Part shown: one piece after another, positions 16,730 through 39,540 of the stretch
Layout: each line of letters begins with the position of its first letter
Position numbering within the stretch: the stretch's first letter is position 1
DNA from: Muribaculaceae bacterium
GTDB lineage: Bacteria > Bacillota > Clostridia > Lachnospirales > Lachnospiraceae
Reading direction: 5' to 3'
Assembly: GCA_023666425.1 (NCBI GenBank)
Contig: JAMPCA010000001.1
Coordinates: 1,036,986 to 1,100,985 of the forward strand
Length of the DNA stretch: 64,000 nucleotides
Translations under genes and position numbers: made by a program
Notes under the pieces: model-generated
Told to the model about the DNA's origin: nothing
The model's database searches: none
What the model saw: the letters and a program-made list of their open reading frames with translations, nothing else

Positions 16730-18772
16730 TCAGGTCTCGAAGACGGATACTTTCTCTGACAGTCCGGTCACTCTCTCCATGGTATCATTCGTCAGATCCA
16801 CCACCTCATTGGCCTTTAGGGTAATCTCCGTACTGTTCTGCGCGATCAGGGTAACGCCCGTCGCCGATTCCTCTGTCGCAACCGCAATGTCTTTCAGCGC
16901 CGATACAATATACTTGATCGTGCCAAGTATCTGCTTTGCCGATTGATCAAAATTGGATACGATCCCGCCGATGTTATCTGCATCGTCATTATACTGCCTG
17001 CTCGTCTGGGTCATGTTCTCATAATCCTGCATCACCGTCCCGTCAAGGAATTCCAGAATATCCTGGGCGCAGCTGCTTAAGTTCTCCACGCTTTGCACAA
17101 CTTCTTTTGTAATGATCTGGATCTGGTTGACAGATTCCTTGGAGTTCTCCGCCAGATGGCCGATCTCACTCGCCACAACCGCAAAGCCCTTGCCCGAATC
17201 ACCGGCTCTCGCCGCCTCGATGCTCGCATTTAATGCCAGCAGATTCGTCTGTGAGGTAATCGAGAGAATGGCATCTGACAGTTTGCTGATTTCTTCAATC
17301 CTTGCCGCATCCGCAATTGCCTTCTGCAGGGTCTGCATAGACTGCTGATAAATGGCAACCGCGTTGTCCTTGGAGCGGATCGTCGCCTGCTCCAGCTCGT
17401 AAGCCCTCTGCTTGATCTCCTGCGACGTCCTGCTCCCCTCATCGGCAAGCTGCGCGACGGAAATCAGGCTCTGCTCTGCTTCTGCCGCGACATTGGACAT
17501 CTGCTCGGTCGTCGCCGCCGTCTCCTGGGAGGAGGCCGCCAGCTCCTGTATGGTGGCCGATACGCTTTCCAGCTCCGACATCAGGCCGCTCATCTGGTTC
17601 TGCTGCCTGCCTGCATAACTGGATACGTCGCCCGAGCTTTCATTCACAGCCGAGATGGTCTCGCGCAGCTCGGTCTGCATCTTTTGCAGGGCATTGGCCA
17701 GTATCCCCGATTCATTCTTTGTCTGCAGCAGCTTCTCCGGTATCTGCCGGGTAAAGTTTCCGTGTGCAATATACCCCAGCTCATCCTTGATCGCAATAAT
17801 CGGTCTGACAATGCCTCCGGCGATAAAGTTTGAAACCATACCGAATATGACGATTGCCAGAATGCATATCACGATAATACTAATGATAATTTTTTTCACA
17901 GCGCCATACATCTCGTCGTATTCCGTGTTCACGACGACATGCCATCTGAATTCCGGAAGTTCTGCATATCCCACGCACTTCTTTGCGCCCTCATAGCTGT
18001 ACTCCGCGTAACCGCTGCCTCCCTGCGTCGCCCGGTCGAGCATATGTACCAGATCCTGCAAAGACGGATTCTCTGCAAGCTGATTTTTCGCATTTTCCTG
18101 CTGGATGACCTTATCCCGGTTCGAATGGGCGATGGTGGTTCCATCCGAATTGATCATGTAAGCGCTTCCCGTCTCGCCAAAAACTACCCCGTCCGTAATG
18201 TCGGAAAGGGCGGCGCCGTCCTTCTTCATATACAAAACGCCCGCAATCTGCCCGCTCTCATTGTAGAGCGGAACCGAGATCATCAGTATCATCGTCCCGG
18301 GCTTCGTGGAGTCCTCCAGCGGATCGGACACATAGTTTGTTCCCTCCATGGCCTTCAAGAAATATGCGCGCTCAGAAATATCCGCATACGTCTCAAGATC
18401 GGCAGTCAGCGTTCTTCCGTTCTTATCTGCGACTCCGATATCTCCAACGCCTCTCTCCTCCGCCAGCTGCAGAAGATATGTTTTCTGTTCCCTGTCATCC
18501 TGTCCGAGATTGTAGACCCTGTCATCTGTCCGAAGGGCTTCCAGATATGCAAAGTCCTGCTCCACCGACTCCTGCACTCTGCCCGCCACCTGCTCCGCGA
18601 GAACCGTCAGCTCTCTTTCCGTGCTCTCCGTAAGCACACTCTTCATATTGATCGCACAGAATATGCCGACGAATGCCGCCACACAGATACAGATGATACC
18701 GCTCATCCCTACGATCTCAACCTTGAGGCTCCGATTCCCGCTGCCGCTTCTTTTTTCTTTTGGCTTACCCAT
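16730..18772 (-). CDS. Methyl-accepting chemotaxis protein with double-Cache sensor
   Basis: A 680-residue chemoreceptor. The first transmembrane helix lies at about 20-40. The extracellular part, about 250 residues, is a double Cache (dCache_1) domain with the typical SERAYFLKAMEGTNYVSDPL, MILMISVPLYNESGQIAGVL and GSAYMINSDGTTIAH strands; it senses small molecules directly. The second transmembrane helix (IIISIIVICILAIVIFGMV) is followed by HAMP and a long signalling coiled coil with the tip [27 protein letters not shown] lies 4 nt before the ATG. A -10 box lies in the 152-nt gap to the next receptor gene, so it can be expressed alone. Being next to the rhamnose operon, its ligand may be a sugar-related compound (inference). 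Confidence 0.93.
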   Translation of the reverse strand: MGKPKEKRSGSGNRSLKVEIVGMSGIICICVAAFVGIFCAINMKSVLTESTERELTVLAEQVAGRVQESVEQDFAYLEALRTDDRVYNLGQDDREQKTYLLQLAEERGVGDIGVADKNGRTLTADLETYADISERAYFLKAMEGTNYVSDPLEDSTKPGTMILMISVPLYNESGQIAGVLYMKKDGAALSDITDGVVFGETGSAYMINSDGTTIAHSNRDKVIQQENAKNQLAENPSLQDLVHMLDRATQGGSGYAEYSYEGAKKCVGYAELPEFRWHVVVNTEYDEMYGAVKKIIISIIVICILAIVIFGMVSNFIAGGIVRPIIAIKDELGYIAHGNFTRQIPEKLLQTKNESGILANALQKMQTELRETISAVNESSGDVSSYAGRQQNQMSGLMSELESVSATIQELAASSQETAATTEQMSNVAAEAEQSLISVAQLADEGSRTSQEIKQRAYELEQATIRSKDNAVAIYQQSMQTLQKAIADAARIEEISKLSDAILSITSQTNLLALNASIEAARAGDSGKGFAVVASEIGHLAENSKESVNQIQIITKEVVQSVENLSSCAQDILEFLDGTVMQDYENMTQTSRQYNDDADNIGGIVSNFDQSAKQILGTIKYIVSALKDIAVATEESATGVTLIAQNSTEITLKANEVVDLTNDTMERVTGLSEKVSVFET

Positions 18773-18816
18773 GCCACTCCCCCTGTTCCTTATACTGTTT
18801 CAACTATAATATTGAC

Positions 18817-18828
18817 ATTATACTACAA
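18817..18828 (-). promoter_or_regulatory. -10 region of the dCache chemoreceptor gene
   Basis: On the minus strand, TTGTAGTATAAT, 12 bases identical to the -10 region of the chemoreceptor at 10890. No good -35 box is seen at the expected distance. Confidence 0.45.
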
Positions 18829-18924
18829 ATCAGGCAGAGGTGCATAGTTTTTTGAAACATTTCCCCTCAGTTTCTCTCCGTCCGGATTTCAGGCTGCTCC
18901 TGCGCCCGGTCATGTTCCCGGCGT

Positions 18925-20670
18925 CTACTCGACCACAAAGCCTCCGGAAAGCTCCCGGAATTCCTTCACGACCTCCTTGTTCCGGTGGTTCTCATCCGAG
19001 ATATTCCCGGTCGCATCCAGCAGATCGACGACATTGCCGGTCACATTCTGGATTCCCTGCGAGCTCTCCTCCGCGGAGCTGGATATGCCGCCGATGCTCT
19101 GGAGCACGTTATTGATCTGCCCGCCGATATGGTCTACATTACTCTGAATGTTATCAATCATTTCTGAAACGCTGTTTGCGTCGTCCATATAGCGCTCAGA
19201 CATCGTCTCGAAGCTCTTATAATCCTCCATGACCTTGCTGTTCACAAACTCGGTCATACGCTCACTGCATTCGCACAGCGAACGCACCGCCGCGATCACC
19301 TTGTAGTTTAAGGACTGGATTTCTGTCGCATTCTGCTTGCTGTTGTCGGCAAGTATGCGGATCTCGTCTGCGACGACGGCAAATCCCTTGCCCGCCTCCC
19401 CCGCTCTCGCCGCCTCAATCGAAGCATTGAGGGCTAAAAGATTGGTTCTTGCCGTAATATCCAGAATCGTGGTCGTCAGCTCCTCGATTTTATCAATGTT
19501 GCGGCTCTCGCGAATGCTGACCTCCATCGTCTCGCGAATCGACGCCGCGATCTCCTCCGCCGACCGTTTGCTCTCGACGGTCTGACTGCGGATAATACCG
19601 GCGCGCTTCCTGAGCTCTGCGGCAAAGGCCATGCCTCCCTCCATCTCCCCGGTAATCTGCGCGGTCTCTCCGGAGATTCCCTGCACTTCTCCCTGCATCT
19701 GGTGCACAAGGGCTGTGATTTCCTCGCTTCCCGCCGTCATCTGCTCCATCAGGGACGAAAGGTCGCTGATCTTATCATTGGATGCGGTGAACTGTACATC
19801 GACCCTGTCCGTAATCTCCTCCATATAGACAGAGCTTTGCTTGATGCGGGCAATGACCTGCTGGAACGCCTCCAGAAGGCGGTTGATGCTGTCCGCCAGC
19901 TGTCCCATCTCGTCGTTTCTCTTCTTCCACATGCGCTCCGTCAGGTTTCCGTTTCCGTCGGAGATGGTGCGTGCAATCTGCCGCATTTTCTGCCCCATTC
20001 CCCTGACCGGCTTTAAGAGCATAAAGTAAATGATAAAAATGGCAACTGCCGCGCACAGCACACAGACAGCTGACACTAAAAGACAGCTGAAGTTCGCTGT
20101 GCTGATGGACTGCTTCGCCTGCGACTGGGACTCTTTCAGGCCATTGTCGAATGCCTCCTCCAGCGCAAGAATCACTTCCTCCTGTGCAAGAATGACCGGC
20201 ATTGCCTCCGCTCCCAGATACAGCTTCGACTCCGGTATGCCCTGCTCCTTCCGGATCTGGCTGACGGTCTGCATCGCCTCCATCATGCTCAGGCAGCCGC
20301 CGCGGTACTCCTCATACACTGCGGTGATCTGCGCATTGTTGGTCTTTGCGATGTAGGCGTCCAGCTCATCCAGCATGGACTTTACCGTCTCCACTTCCAT
20401 GTCCAGCAGACCGTATATATCGCCCGCGATCTCCAGATCCTCATCTGAACTTCCGGACAGAATATTGGCATATTTTTGTATGGTTTCTGTCTTTTTCCCG
20501 ATGGCTCCGTACTGTGCCTGAATATTGACATAGACCTCACTCATTGCCGTCACGGACTGATTGATATTCCCCAAATTGACCACGATGATGGAAGTATTAA
20601 ACAGCACTGCAACCAAAATTGCAATCATTATAATCATAATTTTGCATTGAATCGACATACTCTTTTTCAT
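18925..20670 (-). CDS. Methyl-accepting chemotaxis protein linked to the rhamnoside operon
   Basis: About 581 residues. The first transmembrane helix is near residues 10-33 and the second near 180-205 ([20 protein letters not shown]). Between them is a helical, Cache-free sensor (four-helix-bundle type). A HAMP domain and a signalling coiled coil with tip [20 protein letters not shown] follow. Two starts are possible (20682 and 20670). The AAGGAAG box abuts the first and is 12 nt from the second, so the second is preferred with little certainty. It begins 45 nt (33 nt if the first ATG is used) after the diguanylate cyclase stop, with no terminator between, so it is probably the last gene of the rhamnoside operon. 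This suggests tuning of chemotaxis to the imported sugar. Confidence 0.9.
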
Positions 20671-20715
20671 ACAGTTACCCATCTTCCTTTTCCTAAGTGC
20701 CCAAAGCCGTTAAAG

Positions 20716-22566
20716 TCACCTTTTTTTCTTCATATTGTACATTTCCCTGTCCGCCTGCTCCATGAGCTGGTCAAGTTTGAAATCTTCTGAGATTAACACG
20801 GACTGGAAACCCACGCTGACGCTCATTATATACTCTTTGTTATTCTTTTCCCTGTGTGCCGCAAGTTCTGGGTTTAATTTCTCCATCAGATCGTCAAACT
20901 CTGTGCCCGTCTCATTTTTACCCAGAATCACGAACTCGTCGCCGCCATAGCGCATCAGAATCTGTCCGTCTTTTTTGAGCGTCTTTAACATATCGGCGAC
21001 AGATTTGATGTAGAAATCTCCCTCCTCATGGCCGTATGTGTCATTGACTGTTTTTAACCGGTTGATGTCTGCAAACAGAATTCCTATCGGAATCTCCTGC
21101 TGCCTGCACTCCTCGACAAGTCTTTTGGCATAATGGAAAAATCCGGCGCGGTTGTAGATCTGCGTGAGGCTGTCCATCATCCAGACACGGTTTAACTTTT
21201 TGACCAGACGTTTCAGCTCGCCCTGCCTGTGGACATTTTCCAGCGCGTTTGATATGTTTAAAAGCCAATTCTGGAACTGCGTGTTGTTATATCCAATATC
21301 ACTGCCACACATGACAACATATCCCAGACAGTTTTTCCGGAAATGGATCGGTGCGACAATACACACCTCCCCATGCACCTTCCTCCTGCACTCCCTGGGC
21401 AGAATCTCTCTGGAAGGAAAATACGGATACTCTGTAAATGTCCCCTGCTCATACGCAACGGGGATATACACGCGCTCCGAATACTCCTCCCTTGTCTGAT
21501 AGTCATATTCCATCTTGTCCTCCGACACTTCTTCTTCGCAGAGGCACAGATAAACAAATGAAAAATTAACCATGGAAATATATGTTTTCAGGCACTCGCA
21601 AAATTCCTCAAAACTGTCGCAGTCGTTTAAGTCGGAGGCCATATTTTTGTTCATATCCGCCATGGAGACAGAGGAGAGCTTGTGTATGGCATTCTGCAGC
21701 TGCAGCTTTGACGCATTGTATTTATGTCTTTCCCGGCAGCCGCAGCTGCCCCTGTAGCAATACCTCACGGAAAAGGTTCTGCTTGCCGCACTGCCCTCCG
21801 CAAGCATTTTACATGCCTCATAGCCGATCCGCTCCTGCGGCTTTTCCACGGTCGTAATCGCCGGAATCAGCTTGGCCGCGTCAGAGACATGATCGAAGCC
21901 CGTGAGCAGAATGTCCTCGCCCGGCCGTATTCCCTGCCGCGCCAGCTCAATATAAACGCCCAGCGCCATATTATCGTTCGCACAGACGATGGCGTCCGGA
22001 AGATTGTCCTTTTCTACCAGCGTCCTGACAAGCTCCTCGCCGCTGTCGATCCAGTAATTGCCATAAACGATCCGCTCGGAGGGTAAGCTGATCCCGTGCT
22101 CCTCAAACGCCTCGAGCGCCCCCTGCAGCCGTGCGCTGCTCTCCAGATTCTGCTTCGGCCCGGACAGATAACAGATATCCATTGCCCCGTGTGCCTCAAT
22201 TAAATGGGATACCATTCCCTTCATTGCTTTCTGGTTGTCCACACAAAACACCGGCATCCCCGGCGTATGGCTGTCAATGCTGACAACGGGCGTCCCCGAG
22301 GCTGTAATCCGCTCTGCAAGCGCCTGCGCGTGCTGCTCGCTCTGGATCGTGTCCCGCACAAATATGATGCCGTCGTACTGTTTGAAATCAGGCAGACTGT
22401 AAATCTGGAATTCGCCGATTCCATACTCAGACTGGCTATAGATATCGCCGTTACAGGTGAACGCAAAAATATCTATCTTCTGCTCCCTCGCATACTCCAC
22501 AACGCCCTCGAGCAGCCTCTTTTGAACCTCATGTGCAATTCCTCCGATCAGTACAGCAATTTTCAT
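20716..22566 (-). CDS. Diguanylate cyclase with LacI-like sugar-binding sensor domain
   Basis: A 616-residue soluble protein. Residues 1-275 form a type I periplasmic-binding fold as in LacI regulators (KIAVLIGGIAHEVQKRLLEG, then AIVCANDNMALGVYIELARQ, DILLTGFDHVSDAAKLIPAI, TTVEKPQERIG) but without a DNA-binding headpiece. A GSCGC motif closes it. Residues about 300-445 look GAF-like. The GGDEF domain starts with DSLTQIYNRAGF and has an intact active site RYGGDEF at 541-545; the RxxD inhibitory site five residues upstream is degenerate (KDGQ). It should make c-di-GMP in response to a cytoplasmic sugar ligand and may escape product inhibition. The ATG at 22566 overlaps the rhamnosidase stop by 4 nt (ATGA), with GGGGA 6 nt upstream. 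Confidence 0.92.
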   Translation of the reverse strand: MKIAVLIGGIAHEVQKRLLEGVVEYAREQKIDIFAFTCNGDIYSQSEYGIGEFQIYSLPDFKQYDGIIFVRDTIQSEQHAQALAERITASGTPVVSIDSHTPGMPVFCVDNQKAMKGMVSHLIEAHGAMDICYLSGPKQNLESSARLQGALEAFEEHGISLPSERIVYGNYWIDSGEELVRTLVEKDNLPDAIVCANDNMALGVYIELARQGIRPGEDILLTGFDHVSDAAKLIPAITTVEKPQERIGYEACKMLAEGSAASRTFSVRYCYRGSCGCRERHKYNASKLQLQNAIHKLSSVSMADMNKNMASDLNDCDSFEEFCECLKTYISMVNFSFVYLCLCEEEVSEDKMEYDYQTREEYSERVYIPVAYEQGTFTEYPYFPSREILPRECRRKVHGEVCIVAPIHFRKNCLGYVVMCGSDIGYNNTQFQNWLLNISNALENVHRQGELKRLVKKLNRVWMMDSLTQIYNRAGFFHYAKRLVEECRQQEIPIGILFADINRLKTVNDTYGHEEGDFYIKSVADMLKTLKKDGQILMRYGGDEFVILGKNETGTEFDDLMEKLNPELAAHREKNNKEYIMSVSVGFQSVLISEDFKLDQLMEQADREMYNMKKKR

Positions 22567-25112
22567 ATACATTCCCCATTTTGGTCAAAGACGTATGTTC
22601 CGCCGCCCAGCAGACGGCTTTTTCCATTTGGAAAAATTACCTTTGCATTTGCCGGATACGGTATTTCAATCTCATACGAAAAGCCCTTTTCCTCACTGTA
22701 AGTCCACGCGCTCCGGAATGTCCCGAATACCGATTCAAAGCTTCCCCGCACGAAGGAAAAACGCCGGTCGGGCATGGGTCTTATGGTCATCGGAACTTCC
22801 CCCGCCATCTCCGGCAGAAATCCGCACATATACCGGTACATCCAGTCTGCGATGCTGCCATATGCGTAATGATTCAGGCTGTTCATTCCCATATCGCTGA
22901 TGACGCCGTTTTCATCCAGCGAATTCCATCTCTCCCACACCGTCGTCGCACCCAGATTGACCTCAAAGAGCCAGCCCGGATATTCCTCATTCAAAAGCAG
23001 GTCGTAGGCGAGTGTATTGAGTCCGTTCTCCGACAGCGCGGGACACAGCACCGGCGTTCCGACAAATCCGGTATTCAGATGCCCGTTGTTTTCTTCGATC
23101 AGCCGCTTTAATTCCGCCGCAAGGGTTTCCCTCGCATGTTCCGGATACAGCCCTATGTAAAGCAAAAATGCACATGCGGTCTGTGTCGGCTCAATATTCA
23201 GCTTCCCTTCCTCCGTAAAATAGAAGCTGATAAACGCTTTTTTAATGTTGGCCGCCAGCGTCCGGTAAGTCTCCTCCTCCGCCTCAAGTGCAAGCACCGC
23301 GGCCGCCTTCGCCAGCGTCACCGTGGACAGATAAAACCATGCGGACGCCAGAAAACCACTGTCTGTCTTTCCGATGGGATTGTGGATATTGCCATTGTCC
23401 AGCGCGAGCCAGTCGCCCAGCTGCATATCATTCTGCCACAGCCAGGGCGTATCGTTCTGCTCCGCCCTCCCCCGCACATAGTCCACCCAGAGCTTCATCA
23501 TCGGATACTGCTCCCGCAGCATACTGACGTCGCCGTAATACTGGTAGAGATTCCACGGCAGCATCGTCGCCACATCCGCCCATGCGCACGCACCGCCGTC
23601 CCGGTAAAACGGGTTGGTATTTTCCTTAAGCGGCACCTTCGGGCGCGGGGAGAAAAAGGGAACTGCCCCGCCCAGCAGCTTCTGCTCCGGATACAGGCTT
23701 CTCGTATAGTGTCTGAAAAAAGCGCTGCTGTCCATATGAAAGCACGCCGTCGGCGCGAAGATATTCGCATCTCCCGTCCAGCCCATGCGCTCGTCCCTCT
23801 GCGGACAGTCCGTGGGGATATCTAAAAAATTGCACTTCTGCGAGCGGAGCGTGTTGGCAAAGAGACGGTTCACCTTTTCATTGGAAGTCTCGATGTTCCC
23901 AGTCTCCTCAATATCCGACATGATGCGGTATGCACGGAAGGAAAGCTCCTGCCCTTCCTCCAGTCCCTCTACCCGGACATAGCGGAAGCCGTAAAAGGTA
24001 AAATGCGGACGCACCGTCTTATGCGCGCCGTCGGAAGTATAGACGAACTCCGCTTTTGCCGTCCGCAGGTTATCCCGGAAAAACTTCCCGTCCTGCAGCA
24101 CCTCCCCGTACAGGAGGCGGAGCTGCTGTCCTTTCTTTAGCTGCCCTGTAAACTCTGCCCATCCGGTGATGGCCTCGCCGAAATCCAGTAAAATTCCGTC
24201 CCTCTCCACCTTTTTCGATACCGGGCAAAACTCCTCCACCTTCCGTATGGGCGGATTGGAACGCTCTGTCAAAAGCTCCGTGCCATCCGGCAGGATCTCC
24301 ACGGTAAGCGGCTGCTCCTCCCAGGTATCGTTCTGCCACTCTCCGTCGTAAATCCCGTTCTCTCCGACGTTTCCCGTGTGCGCCGACCAGAGTCCGTCCG
24401 TGACAAGCTGCTGCTCTTTTCCCGTCTCATCCTCCCAGATGAGCTCCGCGATACATTTCTTTCTGTCCCCGTACAGATCCAGGTACACATCGTCAAAACC
24501 GAATCTTCCCTTGTACCAGCCCTCTCCCAGCAGAATCTCTATGCGGTTTTCACCGTCCTTTAACAGCTCTGCAACGTCAAAGGTCTGGTACTCCATCAGA
24601 AAATCATAGGAGTGGTAGCCCGGCAGCAGATATTCGTCGCCAGCCTTCTGTCCGTTTATACTTACCTCGTAAAGGCCTGCCCCAAAGATGTAAAGCCTCG
24701 CTTTTTTCACCGGCTGCGAAACAAAAAAATCACGATAGAAAACCGGCATCCGCTCCTTGTCCTCCGCCACGGAGATAAAGTCCGCGCTCCATGCCTCCCC
24801 GCGCTTTCCGGTCTCAAACCATGCCGTCCCACTCTCCACCGTCCCGGAGGCCGTCTGTGCCGTCACCTTCCAGAAATACCGGGTGCGGGCGCGCAGCGCA
24901 AGCGGGATTCTCAGCTGACACTGCATAAAGCCGCTCATCATGCCGCTGTCATAGACAGGGATGCGCATATCCTCTGTTTCCGATACCGTGATCTGCACCC
25001 CGGAGGGAAGATCTGCACCGGCGTCTGTAAGCTTCCATGACAGAACCAGATACGGAAGGTCGTTGCCAAGCGGATTTTTCATGTGGTTCGTTCTTAAATG
25101 TGTGATTTTCAT
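22563..25112 (-). CDS. Alpha-L-rhamnosidase, GH78
   Basis: An 849-residue alpha-L-rhamnosidase. N-terminal beta-sandwich modules (fibronectin-like plus the Bac_rhamnosid_N domain, YRDFFVSQPVKKARLYIFGA) precede the (alpha/alpha)6 catalytic barrel. The hallmark DIPTDCPQRDERMGWTGDAN carries catalytic-site acidic residues, and the C-terminal barrel includes ATTVWERWNSLDENG. It removes terminal alpha-L-rhamnose from oligosaccharides, saponins or flavonoid glycosides. There is no signal peptide, so it acts in the cytoplasm on imported substrates. The ATG at 25112 has AAGGG 8 nt upstream; a GTG at 25118 is the alternative. It lies 34 nt downstream of the GH3 gene and overlaps the diguanylate cyclase start. 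Confidence 0.93.
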   Translation of the reverse strand: MKITHLRTNHMKNPLGNDLPYLVLSWKLTDAGADLPSGVQITVSETEDMRIPVYDSGMMSGFMQCQLRIPLALRARTRYFWKVTAQTASGTVESGTAWFETGKRGEAWSADFISVAEDKERMPVFYRDFFVSQPVKKARLYIFGAGLYEVSINGQKAGDEYLLPGYHSYDFLMEYQTFDVAELLKDGENRIEILLGEGWYKGRFGFDDVYLDLYGDRKKCIAELIWEDETGKEQQLVTDGLWSAHTGNVGENGIYDGEWQNDTWEEQPLTVEILPDGTELLTERSNPPIRKVEEFCPVSKKVERDGILLDFGEAITGWAEFTGQLKKGQQLRLLYGEVLQDGKFFRDNLRTAKAEFVYTSDGAHKTVRPHFTFYGFRYVRVEGLEEGQELSFRAYRIMSDIEETGNIETSNEKVNRLFANTLRSQKCNFLDIPTDCPQRDERMGWTGDANIFAPTACFHMDSSAFFRHYTRSLYPEQKLLGGAVPFFSPRPKVPLKENTNPFYRDGGACAWADVATMLPWNLYQYYGDVSMLREQYPMMKLWVDYVRGRAEQNDTPWLWQNDMQLGDWLALDNGNIHNPIGKTDSGFLASAWFYLSTVTLAKAAAVLALEAEEETYRTLAANIKKAFISFYFTEEGKLNIEPTQTACAFLLYIGLYPEHARETLAAELKRLIEENNGHLNTGFVGTPVLCPALSENGLNTLAYDLLLNEEYPGWLFEVNLGATTVWERWNSLDENGVISDMGMNSLNHYAYGSIADWMYRYMCGFLPEMAGEVPMTIRPMPDRRFSFVRGSFESVFGTFRSAWTYSEEKGFSYEIEIPYPANAKVIFPNGKSRLLGGGTYVFDQNGECI

Positions 25113-25146
25113 ATCCACCGCCCTTTTCTGCTGTATTCTACAGCCT

Positions 25147-26829: not shown

Positions 26830-26872
26830 ATTTTCCTCACATTCTATAGACTGCTGCTCCGTCACAACGCGT

Positions 26873-29908: not shown

Positions 29909-30868
29909 TTACCTCGGAAGCATTTTTCCTCTCTGGTCACTGGTTGCAAGGAATACGACCAGAATGAAAATTGCCGCCTTTACCATCTGTCCGATTCCGG
30001 AGTTCAGATTAAACATCACCATGATCTGGCTTAATAATGTCATGGAAAATGCACCGATGACTGCCGCATAGATTTTACTTCTCGCACCGCCGGATACCGG
30101 CATTCCGCCAAATACAATTGCAATGATGACGTCCATTCCCACGCTCGACGCAGTATTTTTGGTCAGTGTGGGGGCGTATACGATGGACAGGAACGCGCCA
30201 AGCCCCACACCTATTCCTGACAGGACAAACGCAATGATCGCCATCTTCTTTTCCGACACGCCGCTTAACTTCGCACAGATGGGGTTGCCGCCCTGAAATT
30301 TCTGCATACGTCCAATCTTCGTGAAATTAAATACAATTACGCAGATTATTACAAACAACACCAGCACTGCGATTTTAAACGGTGTATTGTTTAGCGGCTT
30401 TACCGCTGCCGACGGCACTGCAATCTCGGAACCTGTTCCGTTTACCTTGATCAGTACCAGCACCAGAGCATTTAACACGCTCAGCATTGCGATGGTCGTG
30501 ACAAAGACCGGCAGGTTGAACACGGAGGCGAGCACCGAATTGAACAGCCCCACAAATACCGCAACGCCAATACACACGAGTGTCATCACCCAAAGATTTT
30601 CCGTCCGGTTATAGACCATTCCGCCGAGCAGCGCGCTCACTGCCACGGAAGCGCCAAGGCTGATATCGAAGGAACCGAGGGTATAGATAAATATGGCTCC
30701 CGTAGCTACAACCGCCACTACCACGGACTGGTTGATAATATTCTTCATGCCGTATCCGATGTTGATATCCTGTATCGTACCGATAATCAGAAATGCGATA
30801 AACAGTGCGGCCAGTCCGAACAGCGGAGTCAGATTCATTATGTATTTTTTTAATTTGTAATTTTTCAT
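29909..30868 (-). CDS. Sugar ABC transporter permease (RbsC type), first subunit
   Basis: A 319-residue BPD_transp_2 permease with eight to ten transmembrane helices. Recognisable segments are FIYTLGSFDISLGASVAVSA, FNLPVFVTTIAMLSVLNALV and FQGGNPICAKLSGVSEKKM (the GGN..aA.lsGi motif), then GGMPVSGGARSKIYAAVIGA. It pairs with the permease at 27508. It starts 13 nt after the stop of the ATPase gene and precedes the binding protein gene by 56 nt. Confidence 0.9.
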   Translation of the reverse strand: MKNYKLKKYIMNLTPLFGLAALFIAFLIIGTIQDINIGYGMKNIINQSVVVAVVATGAIFIYTLGSFDISLGASVAVSALLGGMVYNRTENLWVMTLVCIGVAVFVGLFNSVLASVFNLPVFVTTIAMLSVLNALVLVLIKVNGTGSEIAVPSAAVKPLNNTPFKIAVLVLFVIICVIVFNFTKIGRMQKFQGGNPICAKLSGVSEKKMAIIAFVLSGIGVGLGAFLSIVYAPTLTKNTASSVGMDVIIAIVFGGMPVSGGARSKIYAAVIGAFSMTLLSQIMVMFNLNSGIGQMVKAAIFILVVFLATSDQRGKMLPR

Positions 30869-30881
30869 TTCCGCTCTCCTC

Positions 30882-32402: not shown

Positions 32403-32468
32403 ATGTTTGATCCTTTCTTCGATGTAAGCAGCAATTGTCTTTCAGCCGTTCCTCTTTTTGATAACTCT

Positions 32469-32496: not shown

Positions 32497-32518
32497 TTGT
32501 TTAGTAAAACCAGAAATA

Positions 32519-32547
32519 TTGACATATTTTGATTTATATGTTAAATT
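32519..32547 (+). promoter_or_regulatory. Promoter of the AraC regulator at 32598
   Basis: TTGACA, 17 nt, TAAATT, ending 50 nt before the AraC ATG. Confidence 0.6.
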
Positions 32548-32597
32548 TGTTCTATAAAAAATGTACTTTTTTGATTTTTCTTTTGGGAGGTTGCCGC

Positions 32598-33644
32598 ATG
32601 GAGTATGAGACACTGAAAAGTGAGATCTATAAACTGAATGAAGACGAACAGTTTTACCGCAAGTACTATTACGCGAAGCAGCAGCAATATTCTCTGAAAA
32701 AATTCCTCGCGGAGCTGGATCTGAACCGCGTGTATGAGAGAAATCTTCTGGTTCCGGAAATCAAAAACACCATTCCCCCGCAATATGAGGACTGGTTCTA
32801 TTTTGATCCCGCAGAGCGCGCCTCGATCGTCACCATGCGGCACAACCGCTATTCCCCCCCTATCGAGCACGACCACACGTTTTTTGAGATTATCTATGTC
32901 TACGACGGCACATGCAAACAGACCATCAGCGGCAATACGCACAATCTGTCCACGGGGGATATCTGCATCATTCCGCCCGGAATCAAGCACGCGGTCAGTG
33001 TGTTTGACGAGAGTGTCATCTTTAACTGTCTGATTAAAAAAAGCGCGCTGCACAACCTTTTCTTTAATTTTTTGAACAACGCGAATATTCTCTCTGCTTT
33101 CTTTATAAATAACATTTATTCTGAGAATGGGAACGATTATATTATTTTCCATACGGGAAGTGACTATGAGATCAAGCGGGGCTTCCTCTATATGTACTGG
33201 GAGTCCATAAACCGCTCGCTTTACTGGGACCAGATGATCTCCTATACGCTGATGCTGATATTCGGACTTCTGATCCGCAACTATGAGAAAACGATAGAAG
33301 TGCCCACCTTTACGCAAAAAGCAGATGTGCAGCGCTTTGCCCTGCTGCAGTTCATTCAGGACAATTTCGCCACTGTGACCTTAGAGCAGATTGCGGAAAA
33401 GTTCCACTATACGCCTGAGTACACCTCCCGGCTGATCAAGTCTACCACCGGAAGGTCATTTACCCAGATCGTGCAGCAGGTACGCCTGGAAAAAGCACAG
33501 GTGCTTCTTCAGGATACGAATCTCTCTGTCACAAATATTGCGAATCAGGTGGGCTATGAAACTACGGAATATTTTATCCGTCTCTTTAAGAGACAGATGC
33601 ATATGACGCCGACAGAATATCGAAGGAGAGGAATTATTATCTGA
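32598..33644 (+). CDS. AraC family regulator of the rhamnoside transporter operon
   Basis: A 348-residue AraC-type regulator. The N-terminal cupin-like sensor holds HNRYSPPIEHDHTFFEIIYV, SGNTHNLSTGDICIIPPGIK and HAVSV. The C-terminal part has two helix-turn-helix motifs: TLEQIAEKFHYTPEYTSRLI and VTNIANQVGYETTEYFIRLF, closing with KRQMHMTPTEYRRRG. The start ATG at 32598 has GGGAGG 7 nt upstream; the longer frame to 32529 overlaps the promoter. The gene is divergent from the ABC transporter operon and convergent with fucO. By position it should activate transporter and glycosidase genes when rhamnose or a derivative is present. Confidence 0.92.
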   Translation: MEYETLKSEIYKLNEDEQFYRKYYYAKQQQYSLKKFLAELDLNRVYERNLLVPEIKNTIPPQYEDWFYFDPAERASIVTMRHNRYSPPIEHDHTFFEIIYVYDGTCKQTISGNTHNLSTGDICIIPPGIKHAVSVFDESVIFNCLIKKSALHNLFFNFLNNANILSAFFINNIYSENGNDYIIFHTGSDYEIKRGFLYMYWESINRSLYWDQMISYTLMLIFGLLIRNYEKTIEVPTFTQKADVQRFALLQFIQDNFATVTLEQIAEKFHYTPEYTSRLIKSTTGRSFTQIVQQVRLEKAQVLLQDTNLSVTNIANQVGYETTEYFIRLFKRQMHMTPTEYRRRGIII

Positions 33645-33665
33645 TTCCGCCGGGTCATGTTATGC

Positions 33666-34808
33666 CTACATCAGCTTGCGAAACAGCTCCTTTAAATCCT
33701 CCACGGAGGTATCCTTCGGATTGCCCGGGCAGCACGCGTCCGCAAATGCGGATTCTGCCAGAAAGTCAAGATCCTCCTCTTTTAATGCCTCCAGCTTTGC
33801 CGGAATCCCGACGTCCGCGGACAGCTTACGCACGGCGTCAACTGCCGCCGCTCTGTACTCCTGCTGGGACATGCCGGTGGTATCCACGCCCATCGCCTCC
33901 GCGATATCCTTAAACTTCTCTCCGGTCGTCTCTGCATTGTACTCCATGACGATTGGAAGCATCATTGCACATGCCACGCCGTGCGGCGTATCGTAGACCG
34001 CGCCCAGCGTATGCGCCATGGAATGTGCGATGCCAAGTCCCACATTGGAAAATGCCATACCGGTCACGAACTGGCCGAGCGCCATGCCCTCGCGCCCCTC
34101 GGGCTTATTCTCCACTGCCGCGCGCAGGTTTTCGGAGATCAGCCGGATCGCCTCAAGATTCAGACAGTCTGCCAGCCGCCATGCCGCCTTTGTCGTATAG
34201 CCCTCGATGGCATGGGTCAGCGCATCCATTCCGGTTGCCGCTGTCAGCCCCTTTGGCATACTTGCCATCATCTCCGGATCGACCACCGCGATATCAGGGA
34301 TATCGTTGACGTCCACGCACACGAACTTTCTCTTTTTCTCCACATCTGTAATTACATAGTTGATGGTCGCCTCCGCAGCCGTGCCTGCGGTCGTCGGAAC
34401 AGCGATTGTAAATACGGTCTTGTTCTTTGTCGGCGCTACGCCCTCCAGAGAGCGCACGTCCTCAAACTCGGGATTGTTGATGATGATGCCGATGGCTTTT
34501 CCGGTATCCATGGAGGAGCCGCCACCGATGGTGATCATATAGTCTGCGCCGGACGCCTTGTATGCCGCCACGCCTGCCTTGACATTCTCGATGGTCGGGT
34601 TGGGCTTAATGTCGGAATAGACCTCATACGCCATGCCCTCTGCGTCCAGCAGCTGCGTCACTTTTGCCGTCACACCGAATTTCACCAGATCGGGGTCAGA
34701 GGCGATAAAGGCCTTATTGAGCCCTTTGTCCTTAATAATCCCGGGGATTTCCTTAATTGCTCCCGCTCCGTGATAGGAAGTGCCGTTGAGTACAAAACGA
34801 TTTACCAT
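33666..34808 (-). CDS. fucO: Lactaldehyde reductase / iron-containing 1,2-propanediol oxidoreductase
   Basis: A 380-residue group III iron-dependent alcohol dehydrogenase that aligns by eye with E. coli FucO over its length (YMITIGGGSSMDTGKAIGII, AVPTTAGTAAEATINYVITD, TAATGMDALTHAIEGY, NVGLGIAHSMAHTLGA, YDTPHGVACAMMLP). Metal ligands are the Asp and His residues of the VVDPEMM, IAHSMAHTLG and TPHG regions. It reduces L-lactaldehyde from rhamnulose 1-phosphate cleavage to 1,2-propanediol, regenerating NAD+ under anaerobic conditions. It is the last gene of the rhaB-rhaA-rhaD-fucO operon, 44 nt after rhaD. Confidence 0.95.
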   Translation of the reverse strand: MVNRFVLNGTSYHGAGAIKEIPGIIKDKGLNKAFIASDPDLVKFGVTAKVTQLLDAEGMAYEVYSDIKPNPTIENVKAGVAAYKASGADYMITIGGGSSMDTGKAIGIIINNPEFEDVRSLEGVAPTKNKTVFTIAVPTTAGTAAEATINYVITDVEKKRKFVCVDVNDIPDIAVVDPEMMASMPKGLTAATGMDALTHAIEGYTTKAAWRLADCLNLEAIRLISENLRAAVENKPEGREGMALGQFVTGMAFSNVGLGIAHSMAHTLGAVYDTPHGVACAMMLPIVMEYNAETTGEKFKDIAEAMGVDTTGMSQQEYRAAAVDAVRKLSADVGIPAKLEALKEEDLDFLAESAFADACCPGNPKDTSVEDLKELFRKLM

Positions 34809-34852
34809 GATAAAACCCTCTCTTTCTTTATATTATGTTAATATTGTAACCC

Positions 34853-35680
34853 TTATTTTTCGTACAAGAATTTCTCCGGCAGCGTCACGTTGAAACCGGC
34901 CGCCAGATCGCGGAAATTCTGCGGCGTGATGGTCTGCAGCTTCTCCGGCCGCATGGAGAGCATCTTCACAAGGATCTCTGCGGATTTTTCTACGGTGTGC
35001 ATCAGGCCGAACGTCAGATCAAAGTCCTCGCCCGATACAAACATGCCGTGATGCGCCCAGACTGCAACATCATACTGCTTCATCAGCTCACTGGTCGCTA
35101 CGGCGATGTCCCTGCCGCCCGGCACCATCCAGCCTACGACGCCGATGCCGTCCGGAAATACAACCGGGCATTCGGTCGCCATCTCCCAGAGCTCCCTTGT
35201 AAATACCTTATCCTCCAGTGGCAGCACGAAGGTGAGCGCGATCACATTGGTGGTGTGCGCGTGGTAGATCACGCGGTGCGCGCCGTTCGTCGCCAAAAGT
35301 TTTACCTCATGGTTCATCAGATGGCTCGGCAGCTCGCTGGTCGGCCTGCCGCCATTTTTCAGTCCCCAGCAGATGCGGTAATTCCCGCCCTTTTCATCTA
35401 TCTCCACGATGGCAAGCGAGTCCTCAGGGTCTAAAATGACATTGCGGAAATACTTGCCGCTGCCGGTCGCCAGGAAATATTCTCCCGCCAGCTTCGGCAC
35501 GGACGTTCCGATCTCACGCCATTCGCCGTCTGTTTTCAGCTCCTCCCTCACGGCCTCCACTTCTTCTTTTTTGATGCGGTAGGTCAGATTGCCGCCGTTT
35601 CTCTCATGCCAGCCCTGCTCCCAGCCATCGTTGCACATGCGGATAAAACCCTGCACAAATTTTGCTTCTAATACCTTCAT
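34853..35680 (-). CDS. rhaD: Rhamnulose-1-phosphate aldolase
   Basis: A 275-residue class II aldolase of the RhaD/FucA family. Early residues GWHERNGGNLTYRI and the phosphate-side LATGSGKYFRN match RhaD. Zinc ligands are in HAHTTN and in AVWAHHGMFVSG, with the catalytic-type Glu in the RPTSELPSHLMNHE segment. It splits L-rhamnulose 1-phosphate into dihydroxyacetone phosphate and L-lactaldehyde. The gene follows rhaA by 23 nt and precedes fucO, so product and next enzyme are encoded together. Confidence 0.95.
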   Translation of the reverse strand: MKVLEAKFVQGFIRMCNDGWEQGWHERNGGNLTYRIKKEEVEAVREELKTDGEWREIGTSVPKLAGEYFLATGSGKYFRNVILDPEDSLAIVEIDEKGGNYRICWGLKNGGRPTSELPSHLMNHEVKLLATNGAHRVIYHAHTTNVIALTFVLPLEDKVFTRELWEMATECPVVFPDGIGVVGWMVPGGRDIAVATSELMKQYDVAVWAHHGMFVSGEDFDLTFGLMHTVEKSAEILVKMLSMRPEKLQTITPQNFRDLAAGFNVTLPEKFLYEK

Positions 35681-35703
35681 AGTTTATGTCCTTTCCTGTA
35701 TTT

Positions 35704-36963
35704 TTAGCCGCGTTTACTGAGCACCTCGTCCTCATATTTTTTCACTTCGCCGAATATCTCAAAATCGCCGGGGACGCCGCTCTTTTCACAGTAATAATTC
35801 CACACGTCTCCAAACGGCAGCATCTTCACCGCCTCCTGCACGGCCATCAGCTCTGTAAAACGGCTCTCGTCCTGCAGGCGCTTCAGCGTCTCATTCGGCG
35901 TGCACAGCGCCATCATCAGCGCCTTCTGGAAACTTCTCATGCCGACTGCCCATGCGGACACACGGTTGATGCTCGCATCGAAATAGTCCAGCGCGATATA
36001 GACGCGCTCCAGCGCATCGCAGCGCACAATCTCCTTTGCAATCTCCTTTGTCTCATCGTCCAGAAGAAGTACATGGTCGGAATCCCAGCGGACGCCTCTG
36101 GTCACATGGAGCGCAATCTCCGGGTAAAAGCAGAGCATCGCCGGAATCTTGTCCGACACATACTCCGTCGGGTGGTAATGTCCGTTATCCATGAGCGGCA
36201 GGCATCCGTCATGCATGGCCGCCATGGAAAGCGCAAACTCTGCGGAACCCGCGGTGTAGGATTCCACGCCGATCCCGAATACCTTGGATTCCACGCACGG
36301 CTTTACCTTATCCCTATCAAACGGCTCGGCAAGAATCTGCTCAATGGAATCCTTGTAGCGCATCCTCGGCCCCATGCGGTCTGCCGGCACGTCCTTGAAG
36401 CCGTCCCCCGTCCAGATATTCATTACACATGGAACGCCCGTCTCCTCTGCAAAATACTGGGAGATGCGGATGCAGGCTTTGCCGTGCTCAATCCAGAAAC
36501 GGCGCACCTCCCCGTCCGGGCTTGAGAGCGTCAGCCCGTCCTTCACCATCGGGTGGGAGAAAAATGTCGGGTTAAAATCCAGCCCCATGCCGCGCGCCTT
36601 TGCAAATTCCACCCATTTTGCAAAATGCTCCGGCAGAAGCTTATCCCGGTCGGCGGACTCTCCCCCGTCAAAAATCGCATAGCAGGCGTGGACATTGATT
36701 TTCTTTTTGCCAGGAATCAGGGAAATCGCCTTGTCCATATCCGCCATCAGCTCCTGCGGCGTCCTCGCTTTTCCCGGATAATTTCCGGTGGTCTGAATCC
36801 CGCCCGTCAGCGGCCCCTCGTGGTCAAAGCCGATCACATCATCTCCCTGCCAGCAATGCATGGAAACGGGCACTGTTTTGAGCGCTTCCAGCGCCGCATC
36901 CGTATCCACCGCGACTGCCGCAAACGCTTCCTTTGCGGCTGCATATCTCTCTGTTGTTGTCAT
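35704..36963 (-). CDS. rhaA: L-rhamnose isomerase
   Basis: A 419-residue L-rhamnose isomerase of the usual length, recognised from VSMHCWQGDDVIGFDHEGPL, GGIQTTGNYPGKARTPQELM, GLDFNPTFFSHPMVKDGLTL, ESKVFGIGVESYTAGSAEFA, RGVRWDSDHVLLLDDETKEI and LDYFDASINRVSAW. The metal-binding Glu, Asp and His residues in these segments are present. It converts L-rhamnose to L-rhamnulose. The gene lies between rhaB and rhaD with 22-23 nt gaps, in catabolic order. Confidence 0.97.
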   Translation of the reverse strand: MTTTERYAAAKEAFAAVAVDTDAALEALKTVPVSMHCWQGDDVIGFDHEGPLTGGIQTTGNYPGKARTPQELMADMDKAISLIPGKKKINVHACYAIFDGGESADRDKLLPEHFAKWVEFAKARGMGLDFNPTFFSHPMVKDGLTLSSPDGEVRRFWIEHGKACIRISQYFAEETGVPCVMNIWTGDGFKDVPADRMGPRMRYKDSIEQILAEPFDRDKVKPCVESKVFGIGVESYTAGSAEFALSMAAMHDGCLPLMDNGHYHPTEYVSDKIPAMLCFYPEIALHVTRGVRWDSDHVLLLDDETKEIAKEIVRCDALERVYIALDYFDASINRVSAWAVGMRSFQKALMMALCTPNETLKRLQDESRFTELMAVQEAVKMLPFGDVWNYYCEKSGVPGDFEIFGEVKKYEDEVLSKRG

Positions 36964-36985
36964 GTTTACCCTCCTTCATATTCTT

Positions 36986-38419
36986 TTATTGTAACTGTCC
37001 AGTACCTTCACAGTACTCTTTTATCTCAAATGACCGGAGTACACAGTCTCTTGCTTCCGATAAATCCGCCAGCTCGTGATTTTTAATCATCTGCGCCATA
37101 ATGTTTCCAATCGCCGTCGCCTCGCCCGGCCCGGCGTAAACTCTCTTCCCCGTTGCCTTTGCCGTCAGGCGGTTTAAGTACGCGGCATTGGCGCCTCCCC
37201 CGATAATGTAGACCGCGCCGTAGGTTTTTCCGGTGTTTCTCTCAATCTCCTGCACCGTCTCCCCGTAACAGCCCGCAAGGCTCTGATAGATCACGGCGGC
37301 AATTTCTCCCACCTTCTCGGGAACCATCTGGTTCGTCCTGCGGCAATAATCCTGAATCTCCGCCGTCATGCTTTCCGGCGCCAGAAAACAGTTGTCATTT
37401 GCATTGACACGCGACGGAAAATCATCGCACTCTTCCGCCATCTGGCACAGCCCTGCAAACGAATACTTATCGTCCAGCTCGTGGCGCACGGACTGGATCA
37501 TCCAAAGTCCCATGATGTTTTTCAGATAACGGAACCGGTAATCGTAACCGCCCTCGTTCGTAAAGTTCGCCTTGCGGCTCTTCTCGCTGCAATCTGCCTG
37601 CATAAGCTCTACGCCCATCAGCGACCACGTTCCCGAACTCAGATATAAAATATCGCCGTCCGCCGCCGCCTTTGACTTTGGCACCGCCATGACGGCCGCC
37701 GCCGTATCGTGGCTGCTGCACAGGACAACCTTACAGTCAAAGCCCGCCTCCTTTGCAATTTCCTCCCGGAGGTTCCCCACCTCTGCGCCCGGCATCCGAA
37801 GCGGCAAAAATATGTCCTCCGGGTATCCCAGCTGGCAGATCAGCTCTCTGTCCCACTGCTTCGTCTGTGGGCTGACCAGCTGCGTGGAAGTCGCGTTTGT
37901 GTATTCCGATACTTTTTCCCCGGTCAGCAAAAACTGAAAATAATCCGGCAGCATCAGAAAGGTCTTTGCCTGCGCTAAAATCTCCGGCCTTTGCTTTTTG
38001 TCCGCCATCAGCTGGTAGATGGTATTGAAGCTCTGCTTCTGGATACCGGTGCGTGCATACAGCTCGTCCTCCGCAATTTTTTCATATACCAGCGCGTCCA
38101 TCCCCTTCGTGCGCTCATCTCTGTAGCCGTATGTCTCTCCCAGCACATGGTCGTCTGCGTCCAGCAGCACATAGTCCACCGCCCATGTGTCTACCGACAT
38201 GCTCTCCGGTATCTTTCCGGTCGCGGCGCACTGCTTCATACCGTTTACAATCTCCTCAAAGAGATGCGCCGTGTCCCACAGAAGCTTACCGTCCTTATTT
38301 GTCATTCCGTTCTCGAACCGGTAGATCTCCTCCAGTTTCATTGTCCCGTCTTCCATATGCGCCAGCATATGTCTTCCGCTCGAGGCTCCGATATCCACAG
38401 CCAGATAGTACCTGTACAT
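36986..38419 (-). CDS. rhaB: Rhamnulokinase
   Basis: A 477-residue FGGY-family sugar kinase. It has the N-terminal phosphate loop YLAVDIGASSGRHMLA, SVDTWAVDYVLLD, the C-terminal ATP-binding pattern YIIGGGANAAYLNRLTAKAT, and catalytic-type Asp in CSSHDTAAAVMAVP. It phosphorylates L-rhamnulose at O1 using ATP. The start ATG at 38419 has GAGGGGG 5 nt upstream; a longer frame to 38479 runs into the promoter region. It is the first gene of the rhaBAD-fucO operon and divergent from an AraC gene, with an inverted repeat between them. Confidence 0.95.
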   Translation of the reverse strand: MYRYYLAVDIGASSGRHMLAHMEDGTMKLEEIYRFENGMTNKDGKLLWDTAHLFEEIVNGMKQCAATGKIPESMSVDTWAVDYVLLDADDHVLGETYGYRDERTKGMDALVYEKIAEDELYARTGIQKQSFNTIYQLMADKKQRPEILAQAKTFLMLPDYFQFLLTGEKVSEYTNATSTQLVSPQTKQWDRELICQLGYPEDIFLPLRMPGAEVGNLREEIAKEAGFDCKVVLCSSHDTAAAVMAVPKSKAAADGDILYLSSGTWSLMGVELMQADCSEKSRKANFTNEGGYDYRFRYLKNIMGLWMIQSVRHELDDKYSFAGLCQMAEECDDFPSRVNANDNCFLAPESMTAEIQDYCRRTNQMVPEKVGEIAAVIYQSLAGCYGETVQEIERNTGKTYGAVYIIGGGANAAYLNRLTAKATGKRVYAGPGEATAIGNIMAQMIKNHELADLSEARDCVLRSFEIKEYCEGTGQLQ

Positions 38420-38497
38420 AAAATCCCCCTCTCCTTCCTCCAGTTTTCTATGGACATTTCTCTCTTCTGCTAGTATCATATACTATATACAGCGAAA

Positions 38498-38536
38498 AAA
38501 TAAGGTCGTATTCCGACAGAAACAGGGACCTTATTT
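38498..38536. promoter_or_regulatory. Inverted repeat, candidate operator of the rhaBAD-fucO operon
   Basis: AAATAAGGTC at 38498 is matched by GACCTTATTT at 38527, a perfect 10-bp dyad with a 19-nt spacer. On the minus strand a TATGAT -10 box lies about 17 nt beyond it (revcomp near 38475), and no good -35 is seen, as expected for an activator-dependent promoter. AraC proteins usually prefer direct repeats, so the binding protein is uncertain. Confidence 0.6.
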
Positions 38537-38580
38537 GCAAATTTGACCCGCACACACATGAGCAAGACAGGAGAATATCT

Positions 38581-39540
38581 ATGAATCAGGAACTGCTGAA
38601 CCATCTGCGGAAAATTACAGACGAAGAGCGGGTGCTTTTAGAGGAGCACTCCGACATTCAAAAGGATATTTATACCTCTGACAGGGAATTTGTCATCGAC
38701 AATGCCAGACTTTTAGAGAGGGGACACCTGATCGAGATCCGGCCGCACACGCGCTTTGCACATTTTCCAAAGCACAGCCACAATTATGTGGAGCTGGTCT
38801 ACATGTGCTGCGGCAGCACCACCCATATTATTGACGATACAAAGGAAATCCTTTTGCAGGAGGGAGATCTGCTTTTTCTCAACCAGGCGGCGACGCAGGA
38901 GATTCTTCCCGCCGGAGAGAACGACGTCGCGGTCAATTTTATTATTCTTCCGGAATTTTTTAACCGCGCCCTCTCCATGATCGAGCGCGACAATGTGCTG
39001 CGCAGCTTTTTGATCTCCACGCTCTCCAGCCGCGATTCGCAGATTACGCATCTGCATTTTCGGGCAAAGGATATCCTTCCCATCCAGAATCTGATTGAAA
39101 ATATGCTGTGGACACTGATTGAGAAAAAATCAGGCATCCATACGGTCAACCAGATCACCATGGGACTTATTTTTATGAATTTGTCCATCTTCTCCGACGC
39201 CATGCTGACCAGCAGGGACGACCACTATGAGCAGGATCTGATCGTGCGCATCCTAAAATATGTCGAGACGAACTATAAGGACGGAACGCTCTGTGAGATT
39301 TCCTCCGAAATCAATCTCCCGCCCTATTATGTCAGCCGCCTGCTCAAAAAATATACCAGCCGCACATTTAAAGAGCTGCTGCAGCAGCAGAGGCTCCAGC
39401 AGACTGTTTATCTGCTAAAGCAGACGACGCTCTCCGTCGATGGCATTATGGAAGCGGTCGGATATCACAACAGCAGCTTTTTCTACCGCATCTTCCGCGA
39501 GAAATACGGCTGCTCGCCGAAGGAATACCGGCTGAAATAA
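38581..39540 (+). CDS. AraC family regulator of the rhamnose catabolic operon
   Basis: A 319-residue AraC-type regulator with an N-terminal cupin sensor (PHTRFAHFPKHSHNYVELVY, ILLQEGDLLFLNQAATQEIL). A C-terminal double helix-turn-helix follows (CEISSEINLPPYYVSRLLKK and VDGIMEAVGYHNSSFFYRIF), ending REKYGCSPKEYRL. It resembles RhaS/RhaR-like regulators and stands divergent to rhaB, so it most likely activates rhaBAD-fucO with L-rhamnose as effector (inference). AGGAG lies 7 nt before the ATG. It is a different protein from the AraC at 32598, so each operon has its own regulator. Confidence 0.92.
   Translation: MNQELLNHLRKITDEERVLLEEHSDIQKDIYTSDREFVIDNARLLERGHLIEIRPHTRFAHFPKHSHNYVELVYMCCGSTTHIIDDTKEILLQEGDLLFLNQAATQEILPAGENDVAVNFIILPEFFNRALSMIERDNVLRSFLISTLSSRDSQITHLHFRAKDILPIQNLIENMLWTLIEKKSGIHTVNQITMGLIFMNLSIFSDAMLTSRDDHYEQDLIVRILKYVETNYKDGTLCEISSEINLPPYYVSRLLKKYTSRTFKELLQQQRLQQTVYLLKQTTLSVDGIMEAVGYHNSSFFYRIFREKYGCSPKEYRLK

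Follow-up and report, generated by a model that had tools for sequence, protein, structure and literature searches.

The window analysed here is a 64,000-nt stretch of DNA from a bacterium deposited as Muribaculaceae and placed by GTDB in the Lachnospiraceae (assembly GCA_023666425.1, contig JAMPCA010000001.1, positions 1,036,986 to 1,100,985 of the forward strand). Within it, one operon joins a sugar importer and two glycosidases to a diguanylate cyclase with a LacI-type core and to a methyl-accepting chemotaxis protein (MCP), here called MCP1. From sequence comparison and structural models we consider it moderately probable that this is a rhamnoside-utilisation operon carrying its own behavioural sensors, which would read the nutrient outside and inside the cell. 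Judged from gene neighbourhoods, the coupling is real and recurrent; its parts are known and its function is predicted. An earlier reading of the same letters (the original prediction) had proposed such a link between feeding on rhamnosides, cyclic di-GMP (c-di-GMP) synthesis and chemotaxis. The genes that it named were all found at or close to where it placed them, and its description proved mostly right.

The genes form a tight single run on the minus strand, from 32402 to 18925, in the order ATPase, permease, solute-binding protein (SBP), permease, pgmB, GH3, GH78, cyclase and MCP1. Across the locus as a whole, a rhamnosidase, an importer and rhamnose catabolic genes lie together, as in a rhamnoside-utilisation locus. 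The proposed 4-nt overlap between GH78 and the cyclase holds with the cyclase ATG at 22566 (shared ATGA at 22566-22563); the longest open reading frame (ORF) of the cyclase begins at 22572. The gap between cyclase and MCP1, given earlier as 45-55 nt, fits the second ATG of MCP1 (45 nt) and not the first (33 nt). A search for internal terminators, a strong one of which would have counted against the original prediction, found none on the minus strand in the GH78-cyclase or cyclase-MCP1 junction; weak terminator-like sites lie inside genes. One weak promoter-like match (9/12, 22588-22559) falls at the GH78/cyclase junction, and the scan that gave it had 25 such matches versus 17.2 in shuffled sequence.

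Comparison of related loci across Lachnospiraceae supports the coupling, in that gene content is kept while gene order is shuffled. Searches with the SBP matched at least 9 of 62 genomes of the genus and at least 20 of 397 of the family, two being in both lists; subtracting six genomes at 34% identity or less (G263, G229, G374, G136, G027, G384) leaves 21 importer loci. Up to 4 candidates per genome were scored in the family SBP search, up to 5 in the LacI-core cyclase search and up to 9 with the MCP1 profile, so that presences are lower bounds and absences provisional; genes in the compared loci are longest-ORF calls, not curated. A chemoreceptor is present in 15 of the 21 loci (the window, G328, G308, G353, G302, G331, G292, G310, G393, G265, G147, G056, G241, G139 and G034), lacking in five and undecided in one (G411). 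All but one of the 15 are of MCP1 type; the G241 MCP, the exception, differs at its N-terminus. Only about 100 nt of the G241 contig remain beyond that gene, and a cyclase further on is possible there. The MCP of G139 is split in two frames, that of G034 sits between GH3 and HAD pieces, and that of G147 is cut by the contig end yet carries the signature ERSQKYMNI. A cyclase accompanies nine loci (the window, G328, G308, G353, G331, G393, G147, G411 and G056), and a chemoreceptor is found in 8 of 9 loci with a cyclase versus 6 of 11 without one. The proposed coupling of the cyclase to the glycosidase operon therefore recurs, with the chemoreceptor as the more constant partner.

The arrangements differ between loci. 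In L068 and L105 the order is ATPase-permease-SBP-permease-GH3-HAD-cyclase-GH78-HAD-MCP; in L071 it is ATPase-permease-SBP-permease-GH78 (short form)-cyclase-GH3-HAD-MCP-rhaBAD-fucO. Locus L146 reads GH78-cyclase-MCP-rhaB-rhaA-rhaD, with overlaps of 4 nt at both the GH78/cyclase and cyclase/MCP junctions and 2 nt from MCP to rhaB. A relative of the AraC-family regulator AraC1 (41-90% identity) is transcribed away from the importer in the window and in 13 of the 20 other loci. Genes of another cluster, cl49, are divergent from the importer in L068 (17610-19997), L071 (419-2875) and L105 (18535-19998); the L068 gene, the only one of the three scanned, encodes an AraC protein that carries a fused GH39-like domain. 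The close relative G328 (L057, 1556-3550) retains rhaBAD, and fucO is gone from between AraC1 and rhaD.

MCP1 has two transmembrane segments flanking a four-helix-bundle (4HB) sensor, followed by HAMP and MCPsignal domains. An alignment of 10 MCP1 sensors has invariant E, Q, K, Y, N, Y and E columns. The Pfam model 4HB_MCP_1, which describes sequence and not fold, gave no match in the MCP1 of the window and 20.7 bits in the relative in L068 (cut-off 27). By fold, the sensor comes closest to 4HB receptors whose structures were determined with small ligands (Vc1313, PcaY, Tsr and Tar). The sensor diverges fast, its median pairwise identity being 19% versus 48% for the SBP (11 loci). We ran a profile built from ten operon MCP1 sensors on whole genomes. 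At E 1e-5 or better it matched at least 18 of 397 family genomes: full-length matches of 135.8-219.6 bits occur in seven (G000, G393, G292, G056, G265, G034 and G139), all at importer loci, G147 matches over 49 positions at its contig end, and the other ten score 64.5 bits or below. Likewise, 16 of 62 genus genomes matched, eight at 191.5-219.6 bits, all at importer loci, and eight at 53.8 bits or less. Among the matches listed, the best in a genome without the importer thus reached 64.5 bits (family) and 53.8 bits (genus). The G034 MCP was assigned by its GH3 and HAD neighbours, on a contig other than that of the G034 SBP. Since most of the strong matches had themselves gone into the profile, independent points come from the members outside it, namely G034, G139, G147 and G310 (nearly a duplicate of G292), together with the lack of a strong match elsewhere among the matches listed. 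Fisher values (2e-13 for the family, 2.7e-9 for the genus) overstate the association, the profile itself having been made from operon MCPs, and are not used as evidence. Co-evolution as a sign of contact between SBP and MCP1 was set aside, since distances correlate across all operon genes and do not discriminate.

The cyclase combines in one chain a LacI-type core (about 1-270), an alpha/beta middle (about 285-440) and a GGDEF domain (463-615), with Pfam matches to Peripla_BP_3 (9.7e-22) and GGDEF (2.1e-33). In an AlphaFold2 model from 21 sequences (mean pLDDT 88.1, pTM 0.72) the core opens with its first strand at residue 2, in agreement with the proposal that it lacks a DNA-binding headpiece. 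The top Foldseek matches are LacI-family cores, led by an ancestral LacI with D-fucose (E 3.7e-21), with CcpA also close among solved structures. No 19-residue window reaches a hydrophobicity of 1.6, hence no membrane segment is predicted. The GGDEF motif is intact at 541-545, and GGDE and D500 are invariant in all 21 aligned cyclases, as are R146, N197 and D225 of the sensor; residue 171, a tyrosine here, is Y or F throughout. R146, N197 and D225 align with R, N and D in a sequence alignment to the ancestral LacI core, and LacI uses such residues for sugars. The stretch KKDGQILMRY ahead of the GGDEF motif has no RxxD, the motif of product-inhibited cyclases. A cytoplasmic, sugar-like ligand is plausible because the core is of LacI type, pocket-like residues are conserved and no membrane segment is predicted. 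A second LacI-core cyclase in the genome of the window (L066, 5256-9080, contig C24) follows another MCP on the same strand after 57 nt; an SBP_bac_1-like protein and a sensor kinase are encoded nearby on the other strand. In L067 of this genome (8838-12892, contig C11), adjacent frames 15 nt apart beside a convergent MCP encode a LacI-like core of 402 aa and a GGDEF protein of 254 aa, which would be a split gene or else a version in two parts.

LacI-core cyclases are common outside these operons. At E 1e-20 they occur in at least 101 of 299 family genomes and at least 46 of 62 genus genomes, counts that include proteins with other outputs. In the genome of the window, three of the four such loci have an MCP close by. 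MCPs lead the in-operon neighbour clusters with 15 slots, and across the 84 neighbourhoods of these cyclases the density of same-strand MCPs peaks at offsets -1 to +3. We compared the 78 cases that remain after subtraction of six rhamnoside operons with 21 other GGDEF genes (20 loci, two genomes), a small control with only four permease probes. An MCP lies within one gene of 6/78 cyclases and 1/21 controls, and an ABC permease within five genes of 8/78 and 0/21 and within seven of 8/78 and 1/21; none of these differences is significant. A general rule that would place the whole LacI-core cyclase family next to chemoreceptors was rejected on this comparison. On this evidence the coupling belongs to this operon and not to the LacI-core cyclase family, because no enrichment is detectable outside these loci with this small control.

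Several observations weigh against an operon with built-in sensors. Five importer loci (G311, G184, G007, G234 and G077), two of them with SBPs 77% and 84% identical, have neither chemoreceptor nor cyclase, and therefore neither gene is needed for uptake. The cyclase is lacking in 11 of 21 loci (one of them on the short contig of G241) and undecided in G034. In G411, the ninth cyclase locus, the HAD gene is followed by the start of a seven-transmembrane-like gene that is not MCP1-like, and then by the contig end. G374, outside the 21, has a similar operon (ATPase 56%, GH3 47%, HAD 60%) without MCP or cyclase. The ten operon MCPs from which the profile was made match it by construction. Outside the rhamnoside operons, 9/78 cyclases versus 2/21 controls have an MCP within three genes and 3/78 versus 0/21 an ABC permease within three genes, neither being significant.

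Of the 12 operon MCPs in a 33-row MCP tree, 11 belong to two clades within one 17-row group, which also holds six MCPs from other LacI-core cyclase neighbourhoods; the G241 MCP stands apart. Forcing the nine operon cyclases into one clade is 50.8 log-likelihood units worse (approximately unbiased, AU, test p 3e-6), and the cyclases of G353, G331, G056, G147 and G411 share no more than 32-36% identity with that of the window, yet are linked. Because the operon cyclases do not form one clade, the cyclase may have joined the operon more than once. Two entries and one exit would be the most economical history; alternatively, the cyclase may have entered once, early on, and left several times.

In the explanation that we favour, the lipoprotein SBP and the ATP-binding cassette (ABC) importer would take up rhamnose-containing glycosides, cytoplasmic GH78 and GH3 would cleave them, and RhaBAD and PgmB would channel the products into metabolism, as their families suggest. 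The importer substrate is presumably a rhamnoside because GH78 and rhaBAD are present. Near-exclusive co-occurrence and the fold of its sensor point to MCP1 as a dedicated outside receptor for this substrate, probably by way of the loaded SBP. In a subset of species, the soluble cyclase may bind the imported sugar or a product and change c-di-GMP; the cell would steer toward the nutrient and then adjust staying or swimming. A fuller form, in which MCP1 reads the loaded SBP outside and a cyclase recruited more than once responds inside to that sugar or to its product, jointly turning seeking into staying, is one that we put forward tentatively.

MCP1 and the cyclase might instead be neighbours of convenience, co-expressed with the operon but sensing another sugar, a sugar phosphate or a metabolite, the operon only timing their expression. 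LacI cores bind varied ligands, CcpA being close in structure, and the neighbourhoods of LacI-core cyclases outside these loci are varied; yet, among the matches listed, no MCP1-type sensor above 65 bits occurs in the searched genomes without the importer, and the linkage survives shuffled gene order. We hold this reading to be rather unlikely. It is also conceivable, if somewhat unlikely, that the cyclase reads the imported sugar but drives polysaccharide synthesis, adhesion or sporulation rather than flagellar motility, MCP1 and cyclase being independent outputs. c-di-GMP has many outputs, and only three PilZ matches were found in the genome, none in the window. Against this, the company of a chemoreceptor in 8 of 9 cyclase loci (the ninth at a contig end) hints at a shared behavioural role.

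Direct binding of the rhamnoside in the MCP1 dimer interface, in the manner of amino-acid binding by Tar and Tsr and without the SBP as go-between, would agree with the small ligands of its best fold matches. The fast divergence of its sensor relative to the SBP argues the other way, and the accessible part of a 2025 study (PMC12415202) reports no ligand for eleven folded gut-bacterial 4HB sensors and suggests, as one explanation, that such sensors read loaded binding proteins. We regard direct binding as an alternative of modest likelihood, below even. Linkage inherited from a single ancestral locus without functional selection seems very improbable: the grouping of the operon MCPs and the correlated distances of the operon proteins are what it would leave behind, but gene order is shuffled with content kept, the strongly diverged cyclases keep their linkage, and rejection of a single operon-cyclase clade points to repeated entry or to an escape.

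The features of the locus are collected in the table. The best NCBIfam likeness of the ATPase is to AraG, at 376 bits and under the AraG cut-off of 689. The SBP gave no match in Pfam or NCBIfam scans and is putatively identified because it sits between the permeases and has a lipobox-like N-terminus; a search of the PDB returned only chance matches to antibody fragments and no relative of known ligand. Hydropathy scans found no hydrophobic N-terminal segment in GH3 or GH78. The motif of the GH3 enzyme presumably resembles that of His/Asp-dyad GH3 enzymes, including NagZ and phosphorylases, and with the adjoining pgmB the pair may release sugar phosphate instead of free glucose. The second operon, rhaBAD-fucO, was borne out as rhaB-rhaA-rhaD-fucO.

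Features of the rhamnoside locus in the window
Feature	Positions	Strand	Basis
ABC sugar transporter ATPase (RbsA/AraG type)	30882..32402	-	Pfam ABC_tran 1.6e-43
ABC permease 1 (BPD_transp_2)	29909..30868	-	Pfam 3.1e-27
Putative solute-binding lipoprotein (SBP)	28590..29852	-	Place between permeases; lipobox-like N-terminus ...MLAGCGGG
ABC permease 2 (BPD_transp_2)	27508..28512	-	Pfam 4.8e-12
Beta-phosphoglucomutase pgmB	26873..27511	-	TIGR01990 equivalog 239.8 bits, cut-off 189.4
GH3 glycosidase	25147..26865	-	Pfam Glyco_hydro_3 1.8e-60; motif KHFPGDG...DQH
GH78 alpha-L-rhamnosidase	22563..25118	-	Bac_rhamnosid6H 1.1e-107 and four more rhamnosidase domains
Soluble LacI-core diguanylate cyclase (predicted)	20716..22566	-	Pfam, AlphaFold2, Foldseek
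Chemoreceptor MCP1 (transmembrane, four-helix-bundle sensor, transmembrane, HAMP, MCPsignal)	18925..20682	-	
MCP1 sensor domain, E..QKY.N signature	20089..20586	-	Alignment of 10 sensors
Chemoreceptor MCP2, dCache_1 sensor	16730..18772	-	dCache_1 1.3e-24
Divergent AraC-family regulator 1 (AraC1)	32529..33644	+	HTH_18 3.9e-23
rhaB-rhaA-rhaD-fucO operon	33666..38479	-	RhaA 5.6e-177, FGGY, Aldolase_II, Fe-ADH
Divergent AraC-family regulator 2	38581..39540	+	HTH_18 1.7e-19

The second chemoreceptor that had been placed in the same unit, MCP2, is present with its double-Cache sensor, and its membership of the unit was not supported. The 152-nt gap between MCP1 and MCP2 holds a TATAAT-containing block that the window shares unchanged with G328, in a gap that otherwise differs over much of its length, and the G308 locus has no MCP2 at the corresponding place. 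MCP2 as an operon member was judged unlikely for these reasons, and it is probably a transcription unit of its own. A third chemoreceptor (10890-12686), with a Pfam 4HB_MCP_1 sensor (47.8 bits), lies outside the rhamnoside run. The genome as a whole (2.74 Mb) has 31 MCP-signal, 18 GGDEF, 6 flagellin and 3 PilZ matches. Among named relatives, metagenome-assembled genomes titled Blautia sp. (88%) and Roseburia sp. (73%) come nearest, and further ones are Lachnospiraceae and Acetatifactor. Elsewhere in the window, an AT-rich island of short ORFs at 39600-43000 has a GC content of about 0.32-0.40 versus about 0.48-0.57 around it; by eye it holds two toxin-antitoxin-like pairs (HEPN/nucleotidyltransferase-like at 40388-41258, Doc/Phd-like at 42167-42784), a methyltransferase fragment and an FMN-binding-like protein. 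A TwoAYGGAY RNA (95 bits, 5071-5234) and a SAM riboswitch (46.3 bits, 61994-62131) both lie on the minus strand.

The E. coli receptors Trg and Tar work with sugar-binding proteins. MCP1 is like them in being a 4HB chemoreceptor that may read a loaded SBP, a use by E. coli 4HB receptors that the accessible part of PMC12415202 mentions; it is unlike them in that receptor and SBP share one operon, the SBP is lipoprotein-like and the SBP-MCP1 interaction is putative. Other parts are familiar as well, MCPs from Gram-positive utilisation loci, PBP-like (periplasmic-binding-protein-like) domains from GGDEF proteins and rhamnose genes from known regulons, as far as the accessible texts go (PMC5320581, PMC8846402, PMC3870299). 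The polysaccharide utilisation loci of Roseburia and E. rectale (PMC5320581) likewise have ABC importers, glycosidases and AraC/LacI regulators, and their regulator list includes a methyl-accepting chemotaxis sensory transducer; in contrast to our locus, its text lacks the terms GGDEF, diguanylate and rhamnos and, as far as accessible, ties no receptor to one importer. The rhamnose regulons of Rodionova et al. 2013 (PMC3870299) share rhamnose catabolism, ABC importers, alpha-L-rhamnosidases and lineage-specific regulators, whereas its text contains none of the terms methyl-accepting, GGDEF and Lachnospir and, as far as accessible, describes no behavioural sensor. PBP-like domains fused to GGDEF appear in a 2022 review (PMC8846402), which, in the portion available, names SBP_bac_3 as the one PBP-clan domain studied so far in c-di-GMP networks and counts Periplas_BP among domains without a validated role; unlike those cases, the cyclase of the window has a locus that suggests a ligand. 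In the literature searched, with most subscription papers outside reach, we found no description of an operon that combines rhamnoside uptake, a chemoreceptor and a cyclase.

Across genera, the 4HB receptor found here is linked to one specific binding protein, and the operon proposes a ligand for a LacI-core cyclase. A single locus thus makes two questions testable, the ligand of a PBP-clan cyclase and the reading of binding proteins by a 4HB sensor. Feeding and movement of some gut Lachnospiraceae may be jointly controlled and, if this is true, diet-derived rhamnosides would set both the feeding and the positioning of these bacteria.

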